Below are positions 4,984 to 15,400 of a stretch of 48,913 nucleotides of DNA, one piece after another. Below the pieces are notes generated by a model. The model saw nothing but the letters and a program-made list of their open reading frames with translations. It was not told the DNA's origin and made no database searches. Made by a program: the position numbers and the translations under genes. Each line of letters opens with the position of its first letter. Positions within the stretch are counted from its first letter, which is position 1. The stretch lies in NCBI GenBank assembly GCA_005116965.1, contig SWDG01000006.1:604984-653896 (forward strand), written 5' to 3'. Source of the DNA: Nitrospira sp. (GTDB lineage: Bacteria; Nitrospirota; Nitrospiria; Nitrospirales; Nitrospiraceae).

Positions 4984-5058
4984 AGGGGCATAGTGTCAAT
5001 GGCAGCACATCGGTCTCCAAAACCGAGAGTCTAGGTTCAAATCCTAGTGCCCCTGCCA
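4984..5058 (+). tRNA. tRNA-Trp (anticodon CCA)
   Basis: The acceptor stem AGGGGCA/TGCCCCT (4984-4990 and 5048-5054) is perfect, with discriminator G and an encoded CCA. The anticodon stem TCGGT/ACCGA encloses CCA at 5017-5019. Placement between rpmG and secE is a common bacterial arrangement. Confidence 0.97.
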
Positions 5059-5150
5059 AGTCTCGTGTGCGCGATCCGGAGGGCTGCCGGAATTGAGATC
5101 GATGTGGGGTAGGCCTTGTAAGTTTTTTGCGGGTAAATAGTTAGGAGTGG

Positions 5151-5176
5151 ATTGCAGTATCAATTGGCCTTGCAAT
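5151..5176. promoter_or_regulatory. Inverted repeat in the tRNA-Trp to secE gap
   Basis: ATTGCAG (5151-5157) faces TTGCAAT (5170-5176), giving about seven pairs including one G-T. It lies in the 205-base gap before secE. It could be an operator or a leader hairpin; nothing else supports a function, and no convincing promoter was found in this gap. Confidence 0.2.
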
Positions 5177-5263
5177 CGGAGCTGGCAGATTGGGCGTGAT
5201 GCGGGGCGGTGATGGGTGTGAGGCAGTTATTCGGATTGACGTGATTAGGCAACGGAGTCACAG

Positions 5264-5458
5264 ATGTTTAAGCGTATGACAGAGACGATTCGGCTGTTCG
5301 TGACGGACGTGCGGGCAGAGCTGAAGAAGGTTTCCTTTCCGAGTCGCGCGGAAACCATCGGGTCAACGACGGTGGTGATCGTGTTCTGTATTCTAATGTC
5401 TCTGTACTTATCCGTCATTGACTCATTCCTTTCATGGTTGGTTGCGAAATTCATCTAA
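5264..5458 (+). CDS. secE: Preprotein translocase subunit SecE
   Basis: A small essential subunit of the SecYEG channel in the inner membrane, clamping the two halves of SecY. The 64-residue protein has the conserved cytoplasmic amphipathic segment (DVRAELKKVSFPSR, about 15-28) followed by a single membrane helix (about 35-60), the minimal one-helix form. GGAG lies seven bases before the ATG. It sits ahead of nusG as in most bacteria; its partner SecY is encoded at 28987-30306, and no SecG gene is seen here. Confidence 0.96.
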   Translation: MFKRMTETIRLFVTDVRAELKKVSFPSRAETIGSTTVVIVFCILMSLYLSVIDSFLSWLVAKFI

Positions 5459-5520
5459 ATCTGGCGAGAAGAGGAATTAAGGAAGTTGGCGGTAATTCAT
5501 CGAAGACATGAGGGTGGTGC

Positions 5521-6057
5521 ATGACAAAGAACTGGTACGTCATTCATACGTACGCGGGTTTTGAGGGGCGAGTGAAGACCAGCCTCATGGAGCGTGCAAA
5601 TCAAATGGGGCTTGTTGAAAAGCTCGGGCAGGTGCTCGTTCCGACAGAGGACGTTATTGAAATTAAGGACGGGAAGCGACGGACCTCTCGACGAAAGTTT
5701 TATCCGGGCTACGTCCTTGTGGAGTTGGAGTTTCCGTTGGGGGATGACACCGTACAGATGATCAAAGAGACGCCAAAAGTGACTGGATTCGTCGGGGGCG
5801 GCGCGGTGCCGACACCTCTGACCAGTGATGAGGTGGAGTCCTTGCTCAAGCAGGTCGATGCAGGGCAAGCCGAGCCTCGGGAGCAGGTCAAGTTCATTAA
5901 GAGCGATAACGTTCGCATTATCGATGGGCCTTTCCTTGGGTTTAATGGGGTGGTTGAGGAGGTCGATCAGGATCATAGTCGGGTGAAGGTGATGGTGAGC
6001 ATTTTTGGTCGGTCGACTCCTGTGGAATTAGGCTTTTTGCAGGTTGAACGGATTTAA
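5521..6057 (+). CDS. nusG: Transcription termination/antitermination factor NusG
   Basis: NusG binds the RNA polymerase clamp through its N-terminal domain and links transcription to Rho or, via S10, to the leading ribosome. The protein has the normal length of 178 residues. The NGN domain starts with WYVIHTYAGFE and contains RKFYPGYVLVE; the C-terminal KOW domain contains DGPFLGFNGVVEEVD. The start ATG 5521 directly precedes TKNWYVIH, as in the family. It stands between secE and the L11-L1 genes, the standard order. Note that S10, its ribosomal partner, is not encoded at its usual place in this window. Confidence 0.97.
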   Translation: MTKNWYVIHTYAGFEGRVKTSLMERANQMGLVEKLGQVLVPTEDVIEIKDGKRRTSRRKFYPGYVLVELEFPLGDDTVQMIKETPKVTGFVGGGAVPTPLTSDEVESLLKQVDAGQAEPREQVKFIKSDNVRIIDGPFLGFNGVVEEVDQDHSRVKVMVSIFGRSTPVELGFLQVERI

Positions 6058-6135
6058 GCCGATCGGTCGACGTCGGTCTTCACTCGTGTGAGGGCTGAAG
6101 GTTGAGTGTCGATCGCGAAGGAGAAAGAGAGCGAC

Positions 6136-6561
6136 ATGGCGAAAGAAGTTTCGGCACAGATCAAGTTGCAAATTCCGGCTGGCAAGGCCAATCCGGCTCC
6201 TCCTGTCGGTCCCTCGTTGGGACAACATGGGGTCAACATTATGGAGTTTTGTAAGCAGTTCAATGCCAAGACCCAGAAGGATGGGGATAGCATTATCCCT
6301 GTCATCATTACGGTCTACAAGGACCGTACCTTCAGCTTTATCATGAAGACTCCCCCGGCGTCTGACCTCCTCAAGAAAGCCGCTGGGATCATCAAGGGAT
6401 CTGGTGTGCCGCAGAAAGATAAGGTGGGGAAAATCACCAGGCAACAGTTGGACGAAATTGCTCGGAAGAAGATGGCCGATCTGAACGCGGCTGATGTGGA
6501 AGGGGCGACGAAAATCATCGAAGGTACTGCCCGTAGTATGGGTGTCGTTATTCAAGGCTAA
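6136..6561 (+). CDS. rplK: Ribosomal protein L11
   Basis: L11 binds the 23S rRNA GTPase-associated centre and is the site where translation factors and the stringent response are sensed. ATG 6136 gives 141 residues, the usual length, and begins [17 protein letters not shown]; an in-frame start at 6106 would add ten unusual residues. A purine-rich stretch containing AAGGAG precedes it. The proline-rich linker after [12 protein letters not shown] and the C-terminal RNA-binding domain ([12 protein letters not shown]) are intact. It is followed by rplA after 26 bases. Confidence 0.96.
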
Positions 6562-6587
6562 TGCCAAGATCGAAGGAGCGTCTGGTC

Positions 6588-7280
6588 ATGGGAAAGAAAA
6601 TGAATGCGGCGATCAAAAATCTTGAGCCGCGTGTCTACGGGTTGCGCGAGGCTGTTGAAGCCGTGAAACGATCGGCTTATGCGAAGTTTGACGAATCGGT
6701 TGATCTTGCGTTGAGACTTGGAATCGATCCGAAGCGCTCGGATCAGCTCGTTCGAGGGACGGCGTCGCTTCCTCACGGCACGGGGAAAAAGGTTCGCGTC
6801 TTGGTATTTGCCAAGGGTGAAAAGGAGCAAGAGGCGCGACAGGCCGGGGCTGACTATGTTGGGGCTGACGACTTGATGGAGAAAATCAAGGGTGGATGGA
6901 TGGAGTTCGATTGCGCGATTTCCACGCCGGATCTTATGGCCTCGGTCGGGAAACTCGGTAAAGCGCTCGGACCTCGTGGGTTGATGCCGAATCCTAAGAC
7001 CGGCACTGTGACCTTCGAAGTTGGGAAAGCGGTCGCTGATATTCGAAAAGGGCGTGTAGAGTTCAAGGTTGAGAAAGCCGGTATCGTGCATGTGCCGGTC
7101 GGAAAAGTATCCTTCGATCCTGCGAAGCTGTACGACAATGCCTCGGCCATCATTGAATCCGTCATCAAGGCAAAGCCTGCCTCCTGTAAGGGGCGTTATC
7201 TCAAGAGTGCCACGATTGCGAGCACGATGGGGCCTGGTGTGATATTGGATACCGTTGCGCTGACCAAACAGTGGAGTTGA
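6588..7280 (+). CDS. rplA: Ribosomal protein L1
   Basis: L1 forms the mobile stalk that helps release deacylated tRNA from the E site, and in many bacteria it represses its own L11-L1 mRNA. ATG 6588 follows GAAGGAG by nine bases and gives 230 residues, normal for the family; the in-frame ATG at 6561, overlapping the rplK stop, would add nine residues and has no better ribosome-binding site. The conserved MPNPKTGTV and TMGPGV motifs are present. It is cotranscribed with rplK and followed by an 86-base leader before rplJ. Confidence 0.96.
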
Positions 7281-7294
7281 GACACGCGTTCAAC

Positions 7295-7317
7295 GTGAAT
7301 CGTTCCTCGCGATTCGC
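7295..7317 (+). promoter_or_regulatory. Hairpin in the rplJ leader
   Basis: GTGAATCG (7295-7302) pairs with CGATTCGC (7310-7317) around a seven-base loop (eight pairs, one G-U). It lies about 50 bases before rplJ, where bacteria often carry the L10-binding autoregulatory leader. The role is inferred from position only. Confidence 0.35.
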
Positions 7318-7366
7318 TGGACGGATGATATTGAGCGGATAACGAATAGCGACCAGAGAGGGAGTG

Positions 7367-8299
7367 ATGAAGAAGGAAGAGAAAGTTACGGCAGTGGCGG
7401 AGTTGACCGAAAAATTCGGTCGCGCCCGGCTGGCTATCCTGACGGAATGCGTTGGGCTTCCGGTCAACGAGGTCACCGAGTTGCGCAAGCAGCTCCGCGG
7501 GGCCAAGGCAGAATATCGAATCGTGAAGAATACGCTCGCGGCGCGTGCCGCCGAAGGGACGGTCTTGGCCGATCTTAAAGCGTATCTCAAGGGACCGACC
7601 GGAGTCGTCATCGGGTACGATGATCCGGTGTTGCCGACCAAGGTGTTGAAGGACTTCATCGGTGCTGAAAAGCGAGAGCTGAAAATTCGCATCACGGCCG
7701 GGGTGCTGGAAGGTAAGATTCTCCAGCCTGCTGAACTGGCCGCCGTTGCGAAACTGCCGAAGAAGGAAGTGCTGATTGCGATGTTGCTGTCGGCCATGCA
7801 GGGGCCGATTCGTGGAGTCGTCTATACGTTAAGTGCAGTCTTGTCAAAGTTTGTACGAGTCATTGCAGCCATTCAGGATAAACGGAAAGGAGAAGGGGAC
7901 ATGCCAGCTACAGAGGGAAAGTTATCACAAGAGGAATTGATTAAGGCGATCGAAGGGATGAGCGTACTCGACCTGGCCGAATTAGTGAAGGGGTTAGAGA
8001 CGCGGTTTGGTGTGACGGCGGCAGCTCCGGTTGCCATGGCGGCGCCAGCTGCAGGCGGTGGCGCGGCGGCTCCTGCTGAAGAGCAGACGGCATTCGATGT
8101 CATTCTTGCGTCGGTACCGGCAGACAAGAAGATCCAAATCATCAAGGTGGTTCGCGAGTTGACGAGTCTCGGTTTGAAGGAAGCCAAGGACCTTGTGGAG
8201 GGGGCACCGAAGCCAGTCAAGACTGGGGTGGCTAAGGAAGAAGCCGACACGATGAAGAAGAAGCTCGAGGAAAGCGGTGCGAAGGTCGAAGTCAAGTAA
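7367..8299 (+). CDS. rplJ: Ribosomal protein L10 fused in frame to L7/L12
   Basis: L10 anchors the L7/L12 stalk to 23S rRNA. The L10 part (about residues 1-178) is complete: the N-terminal RNA-binding domain with RIVKNTLA, then the C-terminal helix region ([16 protein letters not shown]) where L10 normally ends. There is no stop codon here: the frame runs through GEGD straight into the L7/L12 start at 7901 and on to its TAA, giving about 310 residues. ATG 7367 was chosen, with a GAGAGGGAG purine run before it; GTG 7364 is an alternative. Either this is a true fusion made alongside free L7/L12, or the L10 stop has been lost by mutation or sequence error. Confidence 0.85.
7901..8299 (+). CDS. 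rplL: Ribosomal protein L7/L12, from an internal start in the rplJ frame
   Basis: L7/L12 is the multicopy stalk protein that recruits EF-Tu, EF-G and the other translational GTPases. The 132-residue reading starts at ATG 7901 with AAGGAG eight bases upstream, inside the end of the L10 reading frame. It has the N-terminal dimerisation region ([21 protein letters not shown]), an Ala/Gly-rich hinge (about 45-60) and the C-terminal factor-binding domain ([21 protein letters not shown], then [11 protein letters not shown]). The strong internal ribosome-binding site indicates that free L7/L12 is made in addition to any fused product. Confidence 0.95.
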
Positions 8300-8381
8300 G
8301 GAAGCGAGTTCGTCATAGTTGCGGCTGTTCTGGTGTTCGCCGAAGGCGGAGGTCTCTCGATGTTACGGGAATCTGTCGTCA

Positions 8382-8402
8382 GTGGTGACTGCTGTTCACC
8401 GC
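8382..8402 (+). promoter_or_regulatory. Hairpin in the rplL-rpoB gap
   Basis: GTGGTGA (8382-8388) pairs with TCACCGC (8396-8402) around a seven-base loop (one G-U pair). It lies in the 125-base gap between rplL and rpoB, where E. coli has an attenuator and an RNase III site. No T-run follows, so it is not a standard terminator; a role in processing or in lowering rpoBC expression is only a guess. Confidence 0.25.
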
Positions 8403-8424
8403 CAACCAGCGTGGAGGAGTAGGC

Positions 8425-11400
8425 ATGTCCGAAACGACTCTGCAGGAGTTCGTCGAGCGGAAAGATTTTTCTCGCATTCGAACCAATATCGACATTCCGG
8501 ATCTGATTGAAATACAGAAGCGCTCCTACGAAGAGTTTTTGCAGTTTGAGGTCGAATCGGAGCGCCGGAAGGATCATGGATTGCAGGCGGCGTTGGCCAG
8601 CGTGTTTCCAATTCCAGATTATAACAACACGGCCGTGCTCGAATTTTCGAGTTATACCTTAGGGACGCCAAAGTACGACGAGCGAGAATGTCTTGAGCAG
8701 GGTATGACCTACGCGGTTCCGTTGAAGCTGCGTGTCCGTCTGGTGGTGTTAGATAAAGAAGATAAGGGTCCGCGCAAGAAAGTGCTCGATGTACGCGAGC
8801 AAGAAGTCTATGTCGGGGAATTGCCGCTCATGACTGAGCGCGGGACATTTATCGTCAACGGGACCGAGCGCGTCGTCGTCAGTCAGCTGCACAGGTCGCC
8901 GGGCGCGTCGTTTACGCATGATAAGGGCCGGACCCATGCGAGCGGCAAGGTGTTGTATTCGGCCCGCATTATTCCGTATCGGGGCTCATGGCTCGATTTC
9001 GAGTTCGATGCCAGGGATATTCTTTATGTGCGAATCGATCGTCGTCGGAAAATGCCGACTACTATTCTGTTGAAGGCCTTCGGTTTTTCGAGCGACGACT
9101 TGCTGAAGATGTACTATCCTGTTGAAGAAATTCGGGTATCGCAGGGGAAGATGTTCCGCAAGCTGGATCCGGAAATCCACCATGGGCTTCGCTGTTCCGC
9201 TGAAGTGACGGATAAGAGTGGTAAAGAGATTTTGGTGCGAGAGGGGGCCAGGCTGACGAAGGGGATGATTGCCAAGCTGAAGGCTTCTGGAGTGAAAGAG
9301 ATTCCCTTGTTGCCTGCGGAGTTGGTGGGGCGTGCCACCCTTACGGAATTGGTCGACTCGAAGAAGAACGTGTTGGCGGAGAAAAATCAGCGATTGACTG
9401 CCGAGATCGTGGAGCAGATCACTGAAAGCGATGTTGAGGAATTCAAGGTCATTTATCTGGATATGGCAACGGCTACGCCGGTCATTCTTGATACCTTGTT
9501 GATGGAGAAGATCGGGTCAAAAGAAGAAGCGATGGTCGAAATATACCGTCGCCTCCGTCCCGGCGAGACACCGTCGGTGGATACAGCCAGAGCCTTATTC
9601 GACAATCTATTTCTGAATTCCAAGCGTTATGATTTGTCTCCGGTCGGTCGGCTCAAGCTCAATAAGAAACTCGGTTTGGACTTACCGCTCGAGCAGCGTA
9701 CCTTGACCGCACAGGACATCGTGGAAGTCGTCCGCTATATCGTCAATCTGAAGATGGGCAAAGGGGAAATCGACGATATTGATCACTTAGGGAATCGCCG
9801 GGTGCGATCCGTCGGTGAACTCTTGGAGAATCAATTCCGACTGGGTTTGGTGCGGATGGAGCGGAGCATCAAAGAGCGCATGAATCTTCTCGATATGGAA
9901 ACGGTGCTACCGCACGACTTGATCAATGCTAAGCCGGTCGTCGCGGCCGTCAAGGAGTTTTTCAGCAGCAGCCAGCTGTCTCAATTTATGGATCAAACGA
10001 ACCCTCTGGCTGAAATCACACATAAACGGCGTCTGTCTGCTCTTGGTCCAGGAGGACTCACGAGAGAACGGGCTGGGTTTGAAGTTCGAGACGTGCATCC
10101 CTCTCACTACAGTCGCATTTGCCCGATTGAGACGCCGGAAGGTCCTAATATCGGCTTGATTACATCGTTAGCCACGTATGCACGGATCAACCAGTTCGGA
10201 TTCATTGAGGCACCATATCGGAAGGTCGTCAAGGGACGTGTCACTGATGAGATTGAGTTTCTCTCGGCGATCGAGGGCGATAAATACATCATCGCCCAAG
10301 CCAACTCAAAATTGGATGGGTCGTCAAAGCTGGTATCAGAAACCGTCTCGTGTCGTCACGGTGGAGACTTTGTTCTGGCCGGCCCGGATAAGATTGAGTA
10401 CATGGACGTGTCGCCCAAGCAAGTGGTGAGCGTGGCGACCGCGCTCGTGCCGTTCTTGGAGCATGACGACGCCAATCGTGCACTGATGGGATCCAATATG
10501 CAGCGCCAGGCGGTTCCGTTGGTCACATCGGAGGCTCCTCTGGTGGGGACCGGGATGGAAGCGGTGGTCGCGCGAGATTCTGGGTATGTTATTCAGGCTC
10601 GTCGGGCCGGGGTCGTGGAGAGCGTCGATGCCACCCGTATCGTTGTGCGGGCCGATTCGAAGGATGGGAAGAAGGGGAAGGATTCCGGGCTGGACGTCTA
10701 TGACTTGATCAAGTTTCAGCGATCGAACCAAAACACCTGTATTACTCAGACGCCAGTGGTTCGTCTTGGCCAGCCGGTTAAGAAGGGGCAAGTGCTTGGA
10801 GATGGACCAGCCATTGATCATGGCGAACTCGCGCTGGGCAAGAATGTTCTTGTAGCGTTCATGCCATGGGGTGGGTACAACTTCGAGGACGCCATATTGC
10901 TGAGTGAAAAACTGGTCCGCGAGGACGCCTTCACGTCGATCCATATCGAAGAGTTCGAGGTGGAAGCGCGGGATACCAAGCTGGGGAAGGAAGATGTCAC
11001 GCGAGATATTCCCAATGTCGGAGAAGAGGCGCTGAGAAATTTGGATGAGAGCGGGATTATCCGGATCGGTGCCGAAGTAAAGCCTGGTGATATTTTGGTT
11101 GGAAAGGTGACGCCGAAAGGGGAAACCCAACTGACCCCTGAAGAAAAACTGCTCCGTGCGATCTTCGGTGAGAAGGCCGGCGATGTGAAGGATACATCGT
11201 TGACCGTGCCTCCTGGAGTGGAAGGTATCGTCGTCGATGTCAAGATTTTTTCTCGCAAAGGACTCGACAAAGACGAGCGGTCGAAGAGCATCGAGACTGA
11301 CGATCAGATGAAGTTGCAGCGTGATCACCATGAAGAGCTACGGATCATTGATGAGGAAAAAACGAAAAAGATTCGCAAGCTCTTGCTGGGGAAGGTCGTT

Positions 11401-12381
11401 GGACGTGATCTGATGGACCCTGAGAGTGGCGACGTTATCTTGAAGAAGAAGGGTAAGATGACGGCGGAGATTCTTAAGCGATTGCCAGACGACACGGTGC
11501 GTCACATCCTCCTGAGCGATCCCGATGAGCAAAAAGAGTTGGAAGATGTTGAGCGGCGGGCGAAAGAGCAGATTGAAATCCTCCAGACGCTGTACGATGA
11601 AAAGGTTGGGCGCTTAAAGCGAGGTGATGAACTGCCTCCTGGTGTCATCAAGCTTGTTAAAGTCTACGTCGCAATGAAGCGCAAGATTCAGGTCGGAGAC
11701 AAGATGGCCGGTCGACACGGCAATAAGGGTGTCGTATCGCGGGTGCTACCAGAAGAAGATATGCCGTATCTTCCGGATGGGACTCCGGTGGAAATCGTAT
11801 TGAATCCTCTGGGGGTGCCGTCCCGTATGAACGTCGGGCAAATTCTTGAGACCCACCTTGGATGGGCAGCTAAGGCCTTGGGCATCCAGGTGGCCAGTCC
11901 GGTCTTCGATGGCGCGTCCGAAAAGGAAATTAAGGACCTGCTGAAAAAAGCCAAATTGCCGGTGAGCGGCCAGTCGCAGCTCATCGATGGCAAGACGGGC
12001 GAGCCGTTCAGCAGTCCGGTCACGATCGGGTATATGTACGTGCTGAAGCTCCACCATCTGGTGGACGACAAGATTCACGCACGGTCGATCGGCCCCTATT
12101 CTCTCGTGACTCAGCAGCCTCTGGGCGGCAAGGCTCAATTTGGGGGCCAGCGGCTGGGAGAAATGGAAGTCTGGGCGCTACAGGCATATGGGGCGGCATC
12201 GACGCTTCAAGAATTCCTGACCGTCAAGTCAGACGATGTGCCGGGTCGGTCTCGCATGTATGAAGCGATTGTCAAAGGTGAACCGTTCCTCGAGCCCGGG
12301 TTGCCTGAGTCGTTCAATGTGTTGGTGAAGGAACTGCAAAGCTTGGGACTCGATATTGAGCTGGTTAAGACGCAAGACTAA
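8425..12381 (+). CDS. rpoB: DNA-directed RNA polymerase subunit beta
   Basis: The beta subunit of RNA polymerase, 1318 residues, near the usual length. ATG 8425 has GGAGGAG five bases upstream. The rifampicin-binding region (from about residue 514) matches the sensitive consensus: Asp523, His533 and Ser538 correspond to E. coli 516, 526 and 531. [32 protein letters not shown], the active-site region around [17 protein letters not shown], and the C-terminal [19 protein letters not shown] segment that contacts beta' are intact. It follows the ribosomal stalk genes and precedes rpoC by 46 bases, the standard order. Confidence 0.98.
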
Positions 12382-12427
12382 CCGCTTGTGTGCCGGCTGA
12401 AGACCGGTATCAGAGGAGGTCACTACC

Positions 12428-15400
12428 TTGGAAGGCGTATATACACTGTTTGAAAAGCAACGGGATTCGGTGTCGTTTGATGCGATGCGGATTCGCATCG
12501 CATCGCCCGAGAAGATCCGATCTTGGTCGTATGGTGAAGTCAAGAAACCGGAAACGATCAACTATCGGTCATTCAAGCCGGAAAAAGACGGGCTGTTTTG
12601 TGCCAAGATCTTCGGTCCTACGAAGGATTGGGAGTGCAATTGCGGAAAATACAAACGCATGAAGCACCGCGGGATCGTGTGCGACAAATGCGGCGTCGAG
12701 GTGATTCAGTCGAAGGTGCGACGTGAACGGATGGGCCATATCGAATTGGCTGCGCCTGTCGCCCATATTTGGTTTCTGAAGGGTGTTCCGAGTCGGATTG
12801 GAACCCTGCTTGATATGAGCCTCAAGCAGCTCGAGAAAATTCTCTATTTTGAGAGTTATGTCTGTGTGGACCCAGGCTCAACCGACTTAGGGGAAAAAGA
12901 GTTGGTGCCGGAAGATAAGCTGCGCACCCTTGTATCTGAGTTCGGATCAAGCGGGTTTAAGGTTGGAATCGGTGCAGAGGCTATCCGTGACTTATTGAGG
13001 AAGATCGATATTAATGCGCTGTGGGATGAATTGCAGGTGAAGTCGAAAGCGTCGACATCGGCAGCCATGAAGAAGAAGTATGCCAAGCGCTTAAAGGTGC
13101 TGGAGGCGTTTCGTAAGTCTGGGAATAAGCCGGAATGGATGATCATGGATGTCATTCCGGTCCTGCCGCCGGAGTTGCGTCCTCTGGTTCCGCTTGATGG
13201 CGGCCGATTTGCCACATCTGATCTGAACGACCTCTACCGTCGTGTGATCAATCGAAATAATCGGTTGAAACGATTGATGGAGTTGAAGGCGCCAGGCGTC
13301 ATCATCAGGAACGAGATGCGGATGCTGCAGGAAGCTGTGGATGCGCTCTTCGATAATGGTCGCCGAGGGCGCGCGATTCGTGGTCCAAACAAGCGCCCGC
13401 TGAAATCGTTGAGCGACATGCTGAAGGGAAAACAAGGACGGTTCCGGCAGAATCTACTCGGAAAGCGTGTGGATTACTCTGGTCGTACCGTCATCGTTGT
13501 CGGTCCTGAACTGCGTCTCCACCAATGTGGTTTACCGAAGAAGATGGCACTAGAGTTGTTCAAGCCGTTCATCTTCCACAAGTTGGAAGCACGAGGTGCG
13601 GCGACTACTATCAAGAGTGCCAAGCGGTTAGTTGAAAAAGAGCGGCCAGAGGTTTGGGATGTCTTGGACGAAGTGATTCGCGAGCACCCTGTGCTGCTGA
13701 ATCGAGCCCCGACGCTCCATCGATTGGGCATTCAGGCCTTCGATCCTGTGTTAGTTGAGGGCAAGGCGATCCGATTGCATCCGCTCGTCTGCGCCGCGTT
13801 CAATGCGGACTTCGATGGAGATCAGATGGCGGTGCACGTCCCGCTATCCGTTGAAGCGCAGGTTGAAGCACGGGTTCTCATGATGTCCATCAACAATATT
13901 CTTTCTCCGGCCAATGGTAAGCCGATTGCGGTGCCGTCGCAGGATATGGTGTTGGGCTGTTATTGGTTGACGAAAGAGCGGTTGGGCGCAAAGGGCGAGG
14001 GGAAGGTGTTTGGGTCCCCTGAAGAAGTTCGGATTGCCTTTGATGCGAGAGAAATGGAAGAGCATGCGCGGATTAAGGTGCGTCTTGAGGGTTCACTGGT
14101 GCAGACAACTGTTGGCCGTGTCTTGCTGTCAGAAATCCTTCCGCAAGGTTTACCGTTCGCCAATGCGAACAAGCTCATGACCAAAAAGGAAATGACGAAA
14201 CTCATTGATTCGGTCTATCGACAGAATGGTCATCGAGACACCGTCGAGTTCCTGGATAAGATCAAAGATATTGGCTTTACCTATGCGACGAGAGCCGGTT
14301 TGTCGATCTGCGTCGATAACATGCACATTCCGAGTAAGAAGGAAGAGCTGATCGGGAAAGCGCAGCGCGAAGTGATCGAGATCGAGAAGCAGTATTCGGA
14401 GGGGTTGATCACGAACGGCGAACGGTACAACAAGGTGATCGACATTTGGGCACACGTCACTGAGCAGGTTGCCAACGAGATGATGAAGGAACTCGGCGCC
14501 GGCGGTGATCCGGCCAAAGCCGAATCGTTCAACCCAATCTTCATGATGGCGGATTCTGGTGCCCGTGGTAGTTCGCAACAGATTCGGCAGTTGGGTGGTA
14601 TGCGCGGATTGATGGCCAAGCCATCCGGTGAGATCATTGAAACGCCGATCACCGCTAACTTCCGTGAAGGGTTGACGGTGTTGCAGTACTTCATCTCCAC
14701 TCACGGTGCTCGTAAGGGACTTGCCGATACGGCGTTGAAGACCGCCAATTCAGGGTATCTCACTCGGAGATTGGTCGATATTGCTCAAGACGTCATTATT
14801 AATGAGATTGATTGTGGTACGCGAGACGGCATTACCGTCAGTCCGTTGGTCGAAGGTGGTGAAATTATCCAGCCGTTGGAGGAGCGCGTGCTCGGTCGTT
14901 TGGCGGCAGAGGATATTCGGGACCCCGTCACCGGGGAAATTATTGTGTCCTGGGATGAAGAAATCAATGAAGAGCTCACGAAGTTGATCGTTGAGGCGGG
15001 AGTTGATCGTGTGAAGATTCGGTCCGTGCTGACCTGTCAATCTCCCCGTGGTGTCTGTCGTGCCTGTTACGGTCGAGATCTGGCGCGAGGGCGTCTGGTG
15101 GAAAAAGGAGAGCCGGTCGGTGTCATCGCGGCGCAATCAATCGGCGAACCTGGCACGCAGTTGACGATGCGGACCTTTCACATCGGCGGCACGGCCAGTA
15201 AGGTCGTCGAGCAGACCGTGCTTGAGGCGAAACATGCCGGGCGCATTAAGTTCATGAGTTTCGATGCCAAAAAGAACGCCGACATTCACAATGGTGGTAT
15301 TGCGGTGCGGAATAAAGATGGTGAATGGGTCGTGATGAATCGTAATACGAAGATTGCGATTGTCGACGATAGTGGACGAGAGCGTGAGAAGTATCCTGTG

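Follow-up and report, generated by a model that had tools for sequence, protein, structure and literature searches.

A single open reading frame joins ribosomal proteins L10 and L7/L12 across the order Nitrospirales and retains a conserved internal L12 start

The L10–L12 stalk of the ribosome recruits translation GTPases. In a stretch of Nitrospira sp. DNA, the genes for its two proteins, rplJ and rplL, appear to be one. Is this fusion genuine, and which proteins would such a gene supply to the stalk? In the window (i.e., the whole 48,913-nt stretch that was analyzed), rplJ-rplL forms a single open frame on the forward strand, 310 codons followed by TAA, with no internal stop in either the sequence or its translation (Table 1). 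Its L10 part matched NCBIfam model NF000955 with 162.3 bits (cut-off, 85) over model positions 1–167 of 168, indicating a full-length L10; its L12 part matched TIGR00855 with 152.5 bits (cut-off, 84.4), and the Pfam domains for L10, L12 dimerization (PF16320) and the L12 C-terminus (PF00542) all scored above their cut-offs in the one frame. The sequence, NCBIfam and Pfam thereby bear out what a sequence-only reading of this DNA had noticed, namely an uninterrupted L10-L7/L12 frame from 7367 to 8299 with ATG 7901 in frame; the AAGGAG it had placed eight bases ahead of that ATG is likewise present (7887–7892), and the fused protein of roughly 32 kDa that it anticipated has a calculated mass of 32.9 kDa (13.6 kDa for free L12). 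The fused gene gave one match within its own genome. The frames around it resemble rplK, rplA, rpoB and rpoC and follow their customary order. An Rfam search of window positions 5000–13000 returned no L10 leader match ahead of the fused gene at E-values up to 5.

Table 1 Features of the fused rplJ-rplL gene (window coordinates)
Feature	Position	Strand	Basis or remark
Fused rplJ-rplL (L10-L7/L12)	7367..8299	+	310 aa + stop
Shine-Dalgarno-like AGAGGGAG ahead of L10 start ATG 7367	7357..7364	+	aSD duplex energy −7.0 kcal/mol
L10 (uL10) part, residues 1-178 with linker	7367..7900	+	NF000955 residues 4-173; PF00466 residues 1-97
L10 C-terminal L12-binding helix region, residues 144-173	7796..7885	+	three-dimer type by weak alignment
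Linker K-G-E-G-D, residues 174-178, also serving as SD region	7886..7900	+	sequence
Internal Shine-Dalgarno AAGGAG of L12, translated within linker	7887..7892	+	8 nt upstream of ATG 7901
L7/L12 (bL12) part, residues 179-310, 132 aa, from conserved internal ATG 7901	7901..8299	+	TIGR00855 185-310
L12 N-terminal dimerization domain, residues 188-234	7928..8068	+	PF16320
L12 C-terminal domain, residues 243-310	8093..8296	+	PF00542

The window was drawn from a 27-contig assembly, and a sequencing or assembly error might conceal a stop or an indel at the junction. This explanation is refuted, its probability being negligible, by the same fused junction in all 213 genomes of the order Nitrospirales, single-contig ones included, whose assembly contains it. 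These genomes represent four families; a stop codon or one-base indel near 7885–7901, which the sequence-only reading had named as evidence against the fusion, occurs in none of them. Matches were obtained in 214 of 235 genomes and 36 of 37 genera in the order survey, and in 156 of 175 genomes in the survey of the family. By subtraction, the match spans residues 1–310 without a stop in 150 family genomes; in the other six it is incomplete, yet the junction is present and in frame. Contig ends or Ns cut the match in five of these six (G037, G109, G146, G165 and G168), and the sixth, the poor assembly G021, is broken by a frameshift within L10, distant from the intact junction. Among the 58 order matches beyond the family, the junction is present in 57 and unbroken in every one; the contig of G461, which lies outside the count of 213, stops just short of it. 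The fusion is unbroken, too, in N. moscoviensis (NZ_CP011801; assigned to the order Nitrospirales in NCBI taxonomy) and N. defluvii (FP929003), whose genomes are complete. In one genome, L10 residues 1–23 match once more beside the fused gene (G024:C46:336772-336840), which may reflect a small duplication or an artefact of assembly.

There remained 21 of the 235 order genomes without a match, 19 of which were examined for L10, L12 and rpoB. All 19 lack an L10 domain and a full-length L12 domain, with partial L12 matches above the cut-off in G050 and below it in G040 and G080; rpoB is absent from 15 and partial in four. Since L10, full-length L12 and complete rpoB are absent together, these genomes are missing the region, wholly or in part, rather than carrying separate genes. 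A repeat search of G460 also gave no match. Three near-complete assemblies of genus g14, i.e., G110 (a single contig, 99% complete), G112 and G099, are without L10, L12 and rpoB; the region seems to have fallen out of these assemblies or to have been withheld. In many relatives (L048, L051, L054, L063, L122 and others), the fused gene sits on a contig of ~15 kb that breaks ~2.7 kb before and ~11.5 kb after it. Such recurrent breaks probably arise from repeats on either side, for which duplicate tuf genes would be suitable candidates.

Beyond the order, the picture is a different one. In all 27 class- and phylum-level junctions that were read as DNA (23 of the 33 same-class genomes matching a junction-region query, plus four from the wider phylum), L10 ends in a stop and L12 follows as a separate gene. 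In the search rows of the other ten same-class genomes, the match is either split in two or interrupted by a stop, and among the matches listed, the 16 single long ones outside the order all contain stops. Class-level frames of ~330–360 aa looked like candidates for further fusions; the search column reads through stops, however, and the DNA of 20 class loci, these frames included, has a stop after L10. In G271, for example, L10 ends in KKRAAEAG-stop, and the 30 nt between this stop and the L12 ATG contain an AAGGAG. The earlier suspicion that an L10-L12 fusion is not a normal bacterial arrangement agrees with the separate genes at these 27 junctions elsewhere in the phylum Nitrospirota. With every order junction fused and every outside junction that was read interrupted, the fusion looks like an order-wide trait of single origin. 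In the simplest history, a deletion would have taken the L10 stop and most of the spacer, leaving the Shine-Dalgarno (SD) sequence and the ATG of rplL in place.

We found no separate rplL elsewhere: each of 17 genomes tested, 15 of them single-contig, yielded one full-length match to the L12 C-terminal domain. G000 and G001 gave extra weak partial L12 matches of 24.3 bits (below the 25.9 cut-off) and 26.4 bits (just above it). The protein hit, of 102–113 aa (L210 299..640, on contig C6 of the window's own genome, and L211 365..673) contains a short L12 C-terminal-like stretch, IKVVRQERNIGLKEAKEAVE, and, by eye, a hydrophobic, possibly membrane-spanning segment at its C-terminus. Pfam detected nothing in it beyond this stretch, and the lack of an L12 dimerization domain rules it out as a stalk L12.

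From 179 loci, removal of four without a hit, seven outgroups and five fragments left 163, corresponding to 142 distinct fused coding sequences (CDS); the one farthest away in nucleotide terms is 54% identical to the window at the amino-acid level. All 142 have an ATG at the junction, located one codon earlier in the alignment in three CDS of family f3. The SD energy upstream of this ATG averages −9.65 kcal/mol (weakest, −7.0), as compared to −3.40 kcal/mol for 801 other in-frame ATGs, only 1.1% of which reach the internal-start median. It exceeds the strength of the L10 SD in 116 of 139 cases, equals it in four and falls below it in 19. In the 48 of 142 CDS sampled for structure, the 45-nt stretch at the internal start shows less structure than do a median 98% of the other windows of that gene. 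Codon choice follows the same pattern: codon −5 is AAA in 138/142, while AAG makes up 75% of the Lys codons in the rest of these CDS, and codon −4 encodes Gly in 135/142, there always as GGA or GGG, while GGC and GGT account for 52% of Gly codons elsewhere. This SD-forming bias persists when the set is thinned to 80, 56 or 38 representatives. The linker itself differs among families (KGEGD, KGMGE, PKEES, KGDSD). Given that SD pairing and the SD-forming Lys and Gly codons are kept at the junction, the linker is largely an SD read as protein. Thus, the universal ATG, the SD energy, the low mRNA structure and the SD-forming codons strongly support the internal L12 start that had been suggested at 7901, and with it the view that bL12 has retained its own start codon and ribosome-binding site inside the fused gene.

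How many L12 copies such a stalk would hold depends on the L10 tail. L12 binds this tail in dimers, and tail length sets whether there are two of them, as in E. coli, or three, as in T. thermophilus (PMC4592705; PMC6021402); one of these papers gives stoichiometries of L10(L12)4 in E. coli and B. subtilis and L10(L12)6 in T. maritima and T. thermophilus (PMC6021402). Window L10 residues 3–173 align to residues 5–178 of T. maritima L10 (1zav_A) as a full-length match (E = 1.3e-26), the alignment extending to residue 178 of 180 of the T. maritima protein. The 30-residue tail aligns without gaps, albeit weakly (E = 0.058), to 1zav_A 149–178. Based on this comparison, the "two or three dimers" considered in the sequence-only reading may tentatively be narrowed to an L10 tail of the three-dimer type. 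An AlphaFold prediction of the fusion with 29 close relatives had a mean pLDDT of 38.3, too low for testing geometry.

Taken together, we consider it likely that one frame supplies both an L10-L12 chain, whose tether stays uncleaved, and free L12, yielding a stalk of composition [L10-L12](L12)5. Initiation at ATG 7367 would produce the 32.9-kDa L10-L12 fusion as the sole form of L10 and, as L10 has no stop of its own, every L10 would bear a single L12 joined to it covalently. At ATG 7901, the former rplL start, ribosomes initiating independently would deliver the free 13.6-kDa L12 for the remaining sites, with the SD of that start now being translated as the KGEGD linker. The expected composition follows from L12 binding as dimers and from the resemblance of the L10 tail to the three-dimer type: on the L10 tail, the tethered L12 would pair with a free one, and the C-terminal domain of the tethered copy, which recruits factors, would be permanently attached to the ribosome. 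While the fused frame, its conservation through the order and the conserved internal start are direct observations, we infer that both products are made and that the fusion escapes cleavage, as well as the stoichiometry and any functional benefit of the tether.

Whether the tether itself is under selection can be judged from stop codons that failed to appear. On the tree, parsimony over 70 columns gives ~30 changes per fourfold site, an approximate neutral rate, and of the single changes possible at codons −6 to −1, a mean of 2.15 per sequence would introduce a stop while leaving the SD core intact. At the fourfold-site rate, ~22 junction stops would be expected outside the SD core, or 39 with the SD-core positions included; we saw none. 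The ATG follows a conserved L10-tail position (Pro in 141/142) at a distance of 31, 32, 34 or 35 codons, always in frame, and the junction thus varies in length by whole codons only. The nucleotides near the SD are A-rich and under constraint, and selection on these surroundings alone could suppress some stop mutations. Given this constraint and the approximate neutral rate, the deficit of junction stops provides strong but not clean evidence of selection for the fusion itself.

The same evidence weighs on the alternatives. The one that fares best would have the fusion as a frozen accident, having occurred once in the ancestor of the order: both products are made, just as in the two-product gene that we favor, but the tether has no benefit, and a stop is absent for reasons of expression, as ribosomes terminating directly ahead of 7901 would upset the balance of L10 to L12. 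With all order junctions fused and none of those read outside, the distribution fits such a single event, and the nucleotides at the internal start are evidently under strong selection of their own; the missing stop mutations, however, speak against pure neutrality. In prokaryotes, stop and start codons commonly overlap (PMC6728339); that such overlaps are strictly avoided throughout the order therefore suggests a tether that is of importance or has come to be required. Overall, we hold a benefit-free tether to be possible, though clearly the less probable account.

As the chief rival still standing, the fusion could be a mere precursor that a protease cuts near the linker, freeing L10 and L12 for a conventional mature stalk to which the internal start adds further L12. 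Short and charged, the linker probably lies exposed, the sequence is compatible with cutting, and the internal start could serve L12 alone. Yet no cutting motif is evident by eye, the linker varies among families and owes its conserved bases to the SD, and a plain stop codon would serve equally well, though none has arisen despite the ~22 expected. Cleavage thus seems unlikely to us. Programmed frameshifting, by which some ribosomes would end L10 separately at the purine-rich junction, is very improbable: an SD-like sequence ahead of a purine run can stimulate frameshifts, but the 142 sequences share no conserved out-of-frame stop. In the +1 frame the first stop lies 1 to 85 nt past the ATG (37 nt in 83/142), and in the +2 frame anywhere from −19 to 404 nt relative to it.

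We return to the proposed two-product gene. Among the papers listed by searches of one open-access library on such a fusion, on these genes in Nitrospira, and on the stalk, internal starts and P0, none reports an L10-L12 fusion, and the arrangement is provisionally new in print. For Nitrospina, PMC3578206 lists the two genes apart. The need for several L12 dimers is called a mystery in PMC4592705, and the Nitrospirales would offer a natural experiment on L12 copy number, exchange and tethering. Moreover, the locus is a clean example of two genes fusing while a ribosome-binding site was retained by being translated into a linker. In practical terms, labeling the gene as plain L10 or plain L12 would mis-size both proteins, and proteomic studies of Nitrospira should look out for the fused species. 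The order includes nitrite-oxidizing and comammox Nitrospira.

Going one step further, the evidence leans, if by a modest degree, toward a structurally asymmetric Nitrospirales stalk, with a single L12 copy out of six covalently joined to L10 through an SD-derived linker, a tether held by selection order-wide and an independent counterpart of the P0 tail. Compared to the well-studied bacterial L7/L12 stalk, the Nitrospira gene encodes the same two proteins with the same domains, in the usual place before rpoB and with a T. maritima-like L10 tail; yet the known L10 and L12 are separate chains, whereas Nitrospira L10 continues into L12. Among 50 matched PDB sequences, none had its best stretch across both the L10 and the L12 part. 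In eukaryotes, P0 shares a C-terminal motif with P1 and P2 (PMC3794596), and so there, too, the anchoring protein itself bears a factor-recruiting tail. The Nitrospira tail, in contrast, is a complete bacterial L12 including its dimerization domain, the fused gene appears to supply free L12 copies as well, and the two arrangements are not the same by descent. Archaeal P0 likewise belongs in this comparison. PRK04019-derived models, which are of the archaeal type, scored the window L10 at 39 bits (cut-off, 381) and 24 bits (cut-off, 341); by these models the protein would not be a P0, being P0-like solely in that it carries a recruiting domain. Finally, infB and cheA are bacterial genes in which an in-frame internal start gives rise to two products. 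As in the fused rplJ-rplL gene, one frame with two starts specifies a long and a short protein that have their C-terminal part in common; what would set the Nitrospira gene apart is that its short product is a complete, multi-copy ribosomal protein and its long product the binding partner of that protein, fused to it.
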